Source of the DNA: Streptomyces sp. CNH099
Lineage (GTDB): Bacteria; Actinomycetota; Actinomycetes; Streptomycetales; Streptomycetaceae
Direction: 5' to 3'
NCBI GenBank assembly: GCA_000514715.1
Contig: KI911459.1
Span: 795,399 to 859,398, forward strand
Length of the DNA: 64,000 bases
Shown here: piece by piece, positions 52,895 through 54,513 of the stretch
Numbering within the stretch: the first letter of the stretch is position 1
Layout of the letters: each line of letters opens with the position of its first letter
Notes under the pieces: generated by a model
What the model was told of the DNA's origin: nothing
The model's input: the letters and a program-made list of their open reading frames with translations, nothing else
Databases searched by the model: none
Program-made: the position numbers and the translations under genes

Positions 52895-53218
52895 TCACGG
52901 CGCCCCGTCGGGCTCCCGCGGCCCGGGCGGTACCGCCACCAGCCGGCTGCGCCGCTCCCCGTCGAGCACCCGCAGGGCGCGCGCCATCGTCGCCGCGTGG
53001 ATACGGCTCTCGCGCCGCTCGTGCATCAGCGCCAGCGCGTCCCGCAGCCCGGCGGCGGTGCGTACGAGCGCCTGCGCGGCGCGCAGGCCGGCGTACGTGT
53101 CCGTGCCGCGCGCCGGGTTGATCCGGCCCAGCTGGTCGACCGCCTCCAGATAGCGGTCGACCAGCTCCGCCTCCGCGCGCGTCAGCGCGGGCAGCGGCGG
53201 CAGTTCGGGCGGCAGCAT
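52895..53218 (-). CDS. Small helical protein next to ClpP
   Basis: The 107-residue protein is nearly all helix: ALTRAEAELVDRYLEAVDQLGRI, then LRAAQALVRTAAGLRDALALMHERRESRI, with a Pro-rich start and end. No family was recognised. It lies 6 bp after the clpP stop codon on the same strand, so it is co-transcribed. It could be an adaptor, chaperone or substrate of that protease, but no such protein is known to me at this place. Confidence 0.6.
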   Translation of the reverse strand: MLPPELPPLPALTRAEAELVDRYLEAVDQLGRINPARGTDTYAGLRAAQALVRTAAGLRDALALMHERRESRIHAATMARALRVLDGERRSRLVAVPPGPREPDGAP

Positions 53219-53224
53219 GCCCGG

Positions 53225-53860
53225 TCACCTCCCGTAGCGCGGTGACCCCGTGCCCTTGCGGCTCTCGGTCAGCCGGTCGGCCAGCCCGTACGCGACGGCC
53301 GCCGGGGCGTCGAGGATCTTGTCGCGCTCGATGTCCGTGCGGATCTGCTCGACCGGGGTGCCGGAGTGCTTGGCGAGCAGTTCCTCCAGCAGCTCGCGGT
53401 GGCGCAGCAGCTCCCGTGCGTGGATCTCCAGGTCGGTCGCCTGCCCGCGCACCGGCTCGGCGAACGACGGCTGGTGGATGAGCACCCGCGCGCCGGGCAG
53501 CACGTAGCGCTTGCCGGGGGTGCCCGCGGCCAGCAGCACGGCGGCGGCGGACGCCGCCTGGCCGAGGCAGACGGTCTCGATGTCGCTGGTCACGAACTGC
53601 ATCGTGTCGTAGATCGCGGTCATCGCGGTGAACGAGCCGCCGGGCGAGTTGATGTAGAGCGAGATGTCCTGGTCGGGAGCGGCGTGCTCCAGATGCATGA
53701 GCTGGGCCATCACGTCGTTCGCCGAGACGTCGTCGATCTGGGTGCCGAGGAAGACGATCCGCTCCTCCAGCAGCTTCGCGTACGGATCCTGGGTGCGCGT
53801 CCCGCTGCTCGTGCGCTCGGTGAACTCCGGCAGCACGTAGCGCGCCGTGGGCCTGTCCAT
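53225..53860 (-). CDS. clpP: ATP-dependent Clp protease proteolytic subunit
   Basis: The 211-residue serine protease has the catalytic triad Ser104 ([10 protein letters not shown]), His129 (VLIHQPSF) and Asp180 (ERDKILDA), the oligomerisation region [20 protein letters not shown], and a full ClpP head and handle. It belongs with the second-type streptomycete ClpPs (ClpP2/ClpP4-like). Usually these genes come in pairs (clpP1-clpP2 or clpP3-clpP4); here it is single. It is divergent from an orphan YefM-type antitoxin with a TGTAC palindrome between. ATG 53860 is used; a GTG at 53872 is an alternative. Confidence 0.92.
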
Positions 53861-53901
53861 GGTCTGCAGCACCTCTCCCTCTTCGCGGCTCTCCGTAAAA
53901 A

Positions 53902-53918
53902 ATGTACAGGACGTACAT
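53902..53918. promoter_or_regulatory. TGTAC palindrome in the clpP/yefM divergent promoter
   Basis: ATGTAC-AGGAC-GTACAT is a perfect 6-bp inverted repeat. YefM antitoxins of E. coli recognise TGTACA cores, and the left half here is TGTACA. It lies 41 bp from the clpP start and 17 bp from the antitoxin start, so YefM binding here would control both. Confidence 0.6.
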
Positions 53919-53935
53919 CCGGTTATGCTGGGAGC

Positions 53936-54244
53936 ATGGCGTACGAAATTCCGGTGACGCAAGCCCGCGCGGAGCTGGCCGATCTGATCAACCGCGTGGT
54001 CTACGGCGGCGAGCGGGTCGTGGTCACCCGCCACGGCCGCCCCCTCGTGGCCCTGGTCTCCGCCGCCGACCTGGAGAAACTCGACGATCTTGAGAACCCG
54101 CCGGCCGAGGAACAGGTGATCACCACGGTCTCCGGCGTACGCCCGGCGCCCACCGCCGGAGCTGCCACCGGCGAACGCCCCTTCGGCATCGCCGCCGAGC
54201 ACCGCGCCCCCGACACCCGCGCGCACGGCGAGGGCCCGGCCTAG
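53936..54244 (+). CDS. Phd/YefM-family antitoxin, without a toxin partner
   Basis: The 102-residue protein has the full Phd/YefM N-terminal DNA-binding and dimer domain ([43 protein letters not shown]). The C-terminal part (about 55-102) differs from the usual toxin-binding tail, being Pro/Ala/Gly-rich. No YoeB, Doc or other toxin gene follows. The ATG has a GGGAG almost touching it. The stop codon TAG is made from the TA target duplicate plus the first base of a MITE, so the original 3' end may have been changed by that insertion. Confidence 0.85.
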
Positions 54245-54404
54245 GCCCTGTCGTTTGGATCTTCGCTGGGCTCGCGACGCCTGGCACTGCACCTCGCGGC
54301 GTTGTCGTCGGTCGACGACGCTCCGCGTCGCCTCCCTCCTCCGCCTTGCGATGCACAGCACCAGACGCCGCTCCCTGATCCAGCAAGATCCAAACGACAG
54401 GCCC
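54244..54404. mobile_element. 161-bp MITE with 20-bp terminal repeats and TA duplication
   Basis: Ends are GGCCCTGTCGTTTGGATCTT and AAGATCCAAACGACAGGCCC, inverted with one mismatch. TA flanks it on both sides (54242-54243 and 54405-54406). TA duplication is typical of IS630/Tc1-mariner elements. The inside has no frame long enough for a transposase, so it is a non-autonomous element that must be moved by an enzyme encoded elsewhere. Confidence 0.8.
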
Positions 54405-54513
54405 TAGGCCCCGGGACCTCGGACCGGCGGCGGCGAAGATCGTCCGGTGGCCCGATGCCGCCCCCGCGGCGCCCGGGACACGATGCCGGGAGACCCGCCG
54501 GAAGGAGCGCACC

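Follow-up and report, generated by a model that had tools for sequence, protein, structure and literature searches.

Why should a gene of antitoxin type that has no visible toxin stand back to back with the gene of a Clp protease subunit? The question is raised by a locus of Streptomyces sp. CNH099 in which a yefM-like gene (53936–54244, forward strand; 102 aa) diverges from clpP5 (53225–53860, reverse strand; 211 aa; PF00574, E = 4.7e-70), with TGTACAGGACGTACA in the gap between them; positions are those of the window, the whole 64,000-nt stretch of contig KI911459.1 that was analysed. Of the five ClpP genes in the source genome (8.1 Mb), four form two pairs and one stands alone; the latter, the fifth and orphan ClpP of the genome, is clpP5, which encodes a ClpP2-type protein. 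Six nucleotides past its stop codon begins h107 (52895–53218, reverse strand), which encodes a helical protein of 107 aa and is probably co-transcribed with clpP5. The functional unit is yefM, clpP5 and h107, wider than the coding pair whose coordinates the first-pass annotation gave. Among 80 named loci, the nearest relative is that of Streptomyces aculeolatus DSM 41644, whose three cassette proteins are 92–93% identical to those of the window. Of the five Streptomyces ClpPs, ClpP5 is the one least understood. We consider it probable that the toxin-less YefM is a dedicated regulator of clpP5–h107, that ClpP5 is a subunit of a mixed Clp core and that h107 is its accessory. This reading is built on direct observations of the architecture and conservation of the cassette, the geometry of the operator, the joint retention of operator and yefM, and the repeated loss of the ClpP5 catalytic triad under purifying selection.

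The YefM-like protein has the fold of the Phd/YefM antitoxins. It matched PF02604 over residues 5–51 (E = 1.7e-12) and TIGR01552 (phd_fam; E = 2.8e-15), a profile comparison linked it to RelB and Phd antitoxins of solved structure, and the Phd/YefM DNA-binding domain is present. The AF2 model (mean pLDDT 60) predicts a helix-strand-strand-helix arrangement at residues 7–52, followed by a low-confidence tail that is probably disordered. In an alignment of 33 orthologues (A2), both the N-terminal DNA-binding domain and a C-terminal motif of RFGIAAEHR type are conserved; the motif falls in the low-confidence tail and is possibly a binding site or a degron. The first-pass annotation had described an antitoxin-type protein without a visible toxin, and this was borne out: none of the eight largest reading-frame groups downstream of yefM (up to 1.2 kb, 144 loci) is toxin-like, and the adjacent, usually co-transcribed toxin gene that marks a type II toxin-antitoxin system was not seen among them. 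The commonest downstream gene encodes urease gamma (72 of 144 loci, e.g., L074:1679–1987), and Pfam confirmed one urease gamma member and one urease beta member, both downstream of yefM. A toxin hidden downstream of yefM was therefore rejected, the recurrent genes there being urease subunits, and a reading of the cassette as a defence system was rejected as well, since PADLOC gave no match. In the window, a cupin gene occupies the place of urease gamma.

Between the two genes lies a palindrome (53902–53918, no strand assigned; ATGTACAGGACGTACAT) in which perfect 6-bp arms, ATGTAC and GTACAT, flank AGGAC, giving two GTAC cores in the arrangement GTAC-N5-GTAC. The first-pass annotation had placed a TGTAC-type palindrome shared by the pair at exactly these positions, and TGTAC-N5-GTACA indeed occurs once in the window and in none of 100 shuffles. 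In the whole genome, the bare pattern has 8 occurrences and its reversed form has 4, so that the loose motif is weak when taken alone. The longer string is far more specific: the 15-mer TGTACAGGAYGTACA is present in 150 of 394 family genomes and its reversed control in 9 of 394 (our count from the table). In the gap between yefM and clpP5, GTAC-N5-GTAC is nearly universal (129 of 132 gaps; shuffle expectation 0.16), and no other GTAC spacing from 1 to 12 nt occurs in more than three of the 132 gaps. Of the three gaps without the motif, two (L089 and L090) have GTACAGAATGTAC just beyond the borders at which the gaps were cut. Paired TGTACA-type cores, as in YefM-type operators, are thus the rule. 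The core described for the YefM and Axe operators is TGTACA (PMC7730913, available excerpt), and by our reading this string also stands shortly before the start codon in two of the five other Phd/YefM genes of the genome. From the end of the operator to the yefM start codon there are 19–20 nt in 111 of the 129 motif-bearing gaps. The likely −10 element of yefM, TATGCT (53924–53929, forward strand), was read from the sequence; strings of the type TTATGATGGGGAGCATG recur at this putative −10 position across orthologous loci, and a sigma-70 scan called no promoter there. Because this element lies only 6 nt before the start codon, the yefM transcript is probably leaderless.

Both the gene set and the divergent arrangement are conserved. 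A search of 150 family genomes detected yefM in 76 (cut-off E ≤ 1e-6) and h107 in 74 (cut-off E ≤ 1e-5). The two genes occur together in 73 genomes; three have yefM only (G011, G078 and G023, the last being a weak paralogue match), one has h107 only (G068) and 73 have neither. The helical 107-residue protein pointed out by the first-pass annotation is thus co-inherited with yefM in 73 of the 74 genomes that contain it. Conservation of the divergent pair had been set beforehand as a check on the reading, and it was found: clpP5 lies divergent within 300 nt in 68 of the 76 yefM loci. A second set of 80 named-genome loci, picked by h107, has yefM nearby in 69, of which 64 have clpP5 divergent within 300 nt; the 132 gaps given above pool both sets (68 + 64), which partly overlap, and in all these counts the genomes are related, so that the counts are not independent. 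In a class-wide draw, h107 was matched in 32 of 345 genomes, six of them outside the family, and in one genome of another family (G652, L255) the cassette is complete, with GTACAGACTGTAC in the intergenic gap. The set can do without ClpP5, because several yefM loci (L034, L055, L066, L084 and L092) lack clpP5 or have a truncated copy. In four loci (L066, L190, L248 and L259), clpP5 is absent while yefM, operator and h107 are kept, and h107 therefore appears tied to the regulator as well. Relatives of h107 were also seen in three loci of another family (L251, L252 and L254, from G446, G534 and G591) with no clpP or yefM in the fetched stretch; that of L251 sits between a GNAT acetyltransferase gene and a LysR gene.

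The loci in which yefM has been separated from clpP5 tell most about what the operator serves. Eleven of the 80 named loci lack a yefM inside the 4-kb flank. The operator just upstream of clpP5 is retained in ten of these 11, and a whole-genome search found yefM elsewhere in all ten of the corresponding genomes. The eleventh locus (L244) has a ClpP of 26% identity, no operator and no yefM in its genome. One further genome (G257) resembles the ten, with the operator at clpP5 and yefM in trans; G715 and G068 are the two genomes in which no operator-bearing clpP5 was seen, and both are without yefM, h107 of G068 being located at a contig end with its neighbours beyond the sequence. The trans yefM copy of G710 has a stop inside the matched frame. 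Taken together, a site that stays at clpP5 while yefM is encoded elsewhere points to an operator of clpP5–h107 on which YefM may act even from another place in the genome. None of the 11 trans yefM copies has GTAC-N5-GTAC within 90 nt upstream, and autorepression through the operator is therefore expendable and not the conserved part. The autorepression suggested by the first-pass annotation thus stands in part: the fixed distance of 19–20 nt to the yefM start fits it where the genes are adjacent, and the site is absent from the 90 nt upstream of yefM in the trans copies. The two second sets next to polyketide synthase genes, described below, deviate from this pattern: there the operator sits beside yefM, and a thioesterase gene precedes clpP. 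By our reading of the upstream strings, the junction in split loci (L271–L281, L185, L206, L230 and L250) lies near the yefM start codon. Inserts between yefM and clpP5 in L282 and L285 have CTCTGACCTG at both ends in inverted orientation, and that of L282 carries an HTH regulator gene and a phage-integrase remnant (PF00589, 3e-8). The 5′ end of yefM looks like an integration site.

A wider regulon of the operator pattern was considered and set aside. Twelve pattern sites, mostly apparent outliers, were fetched; four of them (L260, L261, L263 and L270) have no cassette gene nearby, lie in or near reading frames and were put down to chance. The pattern site of L258 is accompanied by only the first part of a clpP5.

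The ClpP5 of the window has an intact triad (Ser104/His129/Asp176) and is 69% identical to the ClpP2 of the same genome. Among its orthologues, the triad is intact in 65 and damaged in 68 of 133, with His affected in 63, Ser in 19 and Asp in one. These 133 were obtained from 156 collected genes by removing four shorter than 180 aa and 11 duplicates, which left 141 (67 intact), and then two ClpPs linked to polyketide synthase (PKS) genes and six rows below 58% identity; the tree and the dN/dS pairs were built from the 141-row set. The tree, a quick one with long branches flagged, requires at least eight changes of triad state, five of which are forced by well-supported branches. The median dN/dS was 0.254 in 116 triad-lost pairs and 0.247 in 346 intact pairs (80–97% identity, dS 0.1–1.5), that is, triad-lost and intact ClpP5 are under similar purifying selection. 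As a control, ClpP2 was inspected in 30 genomes with a damaged ClpP5; its Ser-His-Asp triad is intact in all 29 in which it was matched, G136 having no match at the cut-off. The repeated loss suggests that proteolysis need not be the reason for which a bacterium retains a ClpP. In the ClpP1P2 protease of Streptomyces, ClpP1 cuts and ClpP2 docks the ATPases, and the ClpP2 triad is dispensable (PMC9765437, available excerpt), so a ClpP2-type ClpP5 could function in a mixed core even without its triad. We infer that ClpP5, as a ClpP2-type subunit, can do without catalysis of its own. In the ATPase pocket, the third residue is Tyr or Phe in all 40 triad-intact ClpP5 compared with 21 of 30 triad-lost ones, and docking may be weakened too where this aromatic residue is missing; pocket conservation as proof of ATPase docking was set aside, being only partial. 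The identification of clpP5 with SCO1230 was dropped, because that gene is described as a possible secreted tripeptidylaminopeptidase (PMC3276577, available excerpt). In the searchable text of PMC9765437, PMC12607617 and PMC9775585, clpP5 occurs merely as a name.

The third member of the cassette is a protein for which family and structure databases gave no match: h107 matched no Pfam, NCBIfam or PADLOC family, its fold had no PDB match at E ≤ 0.001, and a sequence search of the PDB gave nothing below E = 0.1. Its AF2 model (pLDDT 80) has helices at residues 14–33, 41–67 and 75–93. None of these searches lends support to the adaptor role suggested by the first-pass annotation, in which h107 would bind a Clp ATPase or ClpP and deliver substrate.

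In the scheme that we propose, the YefM-like protein would be a toxin-less Phd/YefM antitoxin turned transcriptional regulator, most likely repressor, of clpP5–h107. It would bind GTAC-N5-GTAC beside clpP5 and, in loci that have kept the divergent arrangement, control its own promoter too. On release, ClpP5 would probably join ClpP1 in an alternative mixed core, in which it may offer or alter a docking face for Clp ATPases, and h107 would act as a dedicated accessory protein of that core.

What the release might be for is suggested by two genomes that hold a second set. In G104 (contig C27; L077, L319 and L320) and G340 (L262, L321 and L322), a yefM with the operator beside it is followed by a thioesterase gene, a clpP, h107 and long modular PKS genes; of the genes after the yefM-operator unit, the thioesterase gene and not clpP is the first. 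Both genomes also hold ordinary yefM and h107 genes elsewhere. The PKS-linked clpP is ClpP2-like (84% and 80% identity to the ClpP2 and 68% to the ClpP5 of the same genome). Here, then, a biosynthetic cluster adjoins a set in which regulator, operator and h107 are combined with another ClpP. Extra ClpPs are known in such settings. ClpP-ADEP of S. hawaiiensis shows that an extra ClpP can be protective, as it disrupts ClpP1 complexes and builds a new core together with ClpP2 (PMC12607617, available excerpt), and in a metagenomic NRPS cluster with a clpP as putative self-resistance gene, the product is a ClpP inhibitor (PMC13386464, available excerpt). These precedents bring in another explanation, in which natural products aimed at ClpP would induce the cassette as a response: YefM would sense a blocked or deregulated Clp core and release clpP5–h107, whose products would replace or poison the target ring. 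A possible extension is a ring-exchange module that a polyketide cluster has adopted for self-resistance. The portable unit would consist of YefM, the GTAC-N5-GTAC operator, a ClpP2-type subunit and h107; the domesticated antitoxin would release an often catalytically dead ClpP together with a new class of helical partner, and these would re-tune the housekeeping Clp core. Such a module might be a general answer of streptomycetes to ClpP-directed compounds, with the ClpP swapped in the copy of the polyketide cluster. We regard both forms of this idea as conceivable, each a good deal less probable than the dedicated regulator, because only two PKS-linked cases were seen and these perhaps go back to one event, their ClpPs being 89% identical to each other. 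Moreover, no sensing mechanism is visible, and ClpP-ADEP is closest to ClpP1, not to ClpP2 or ClpP5 (PMC12607617, available excerpt).

The feedback loop put forward by the first-pass annotation seems to us unlikely. In it, YefM would be at once the repressor of clpP5 and of its own gene and a substrate of ClpP5, which would work with a Clp ATPase, and h107 would be the adaptor. The loop agrees with the fixed distance between operator and yefM, with the intact triad of the ClpP5 in the window and with the conserved, probably disordered tail of YefM, and there is a parallel in the RelB2 of S. cattleya, whose half-life in E. coli was shortened by co-expression of ClpX with ClpP1, P3, P4 or P5 of that species, in a ClpP numbering that differs from ours (PMC4989188, available excerpt). 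Against it, the cassette is kept although about half of the ClpP5 orthologues have lost a triad residue, and a loop that needs ClpP5 to cut fails in these unless ClpP1 does the cutting; degradation of the antitoxin by ClpP is thus unsupported as a general mechanism. The site missing at trans yefM copies and the persistence of yefM, operator and h107 in the four loci without clpP5 point the same way. A mixed core with ClpP1 could still degrade YefM.

That some other regulator binds the operator, with yefM a mere neighbour, is very improbable: the 9-bp geometry is unlike that of the characterised YefM sites (PMC7730913, available excerpt), but yefM is retained in trans wherever the operator is retained. 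Least probable of all is that YefM is still the antitoxin of an unlinked or very small toxin and clpP5 a bystander under its operator: the strong conservation of the RFGIAAEHR motif is what one would expect of a partner-binding tail, but no toxin-like gene appeared among the eight largest downstream frame groups, and where yefM is in trans, it is clpP5 and not yefM that has kept the operator.

The dedicated regulator of clpP5–h107 resembles several known systems, each in part. Like YefM-YoeB and Axe-Txe, it combines an antitoxin of Phd/YefM fold with paired TGTACA-type cores that overlap a promoter (PMC7730913, available excerpt); unlike them, it has no linked toxin and a protease operon as its target. 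The cores lie 9 bp apart from centre to centre, not 12 bp as in E. coli YefM and Axe (same excerpt), and 11 of the 132 gaps contain three consecutive cores. Dedicated regulators of clp operons are known from Streptomyces in PopR, for ClpP3P4, and ClgR, both of which are themselves Clp substrates (PMC9765437, available excerpt); unlike the regulator here, which belongs to the Phd/YefM family, PopR is an activator. As in ClpP-ADEP, an extra ClpP is proposed here to remix the core, and a clpP stands near a biosynthetic cluster (PMC12607617, available excerpt), but ClpP-ADEP is ClpP1-like, whereas the PKS-linked copies are ClpP2-like and accompanied by yefM, operator and h107. The elements of the cassette are known in kind: solitary antitoxins, non-catalytic ClpP subunits and extra ClpPs as resistance. 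The non-catalytic ClpR-type subunits of plastids and cyanobacteria are ClpP paralogues without a full triad that are selectively kept. Triad-lost ClpP5 is likewise such a paralogue kept by selection, but here the triad was lost repeatedly and not throughout, with about half of the orthologues intact, and ClpP5 is ClpP2-type. In the open-licence literature searched, judged by title or start of abstract, we found no description of the yefM/clpP5 pair, and no earlier description of the combination, the operator geometry or h107 was found there. With a probable regulator of its own, a defined operator and a partner protein that is inherited along with the regulator, ClpP5 is open to direct functional tests, and h107 with GTAC-N5-GTAC next to a clpP is a possible marker of clusters that may make Clp-targeting compounds.

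Two further observations concern the surroundings. In the ClpP pair on contig C24 of the same genome, Gly replaces the catalytic His of a protein that we assign as ClpP4-like (G000:C24:158261–158803; L005). Beginning at the yefM stop codon, a 26-nt inverted repeat (54238–54263 and 54385–54410; 96% complementary, 121 nt apart) could mark the two ends of a small mobile element or form a large hairpin.
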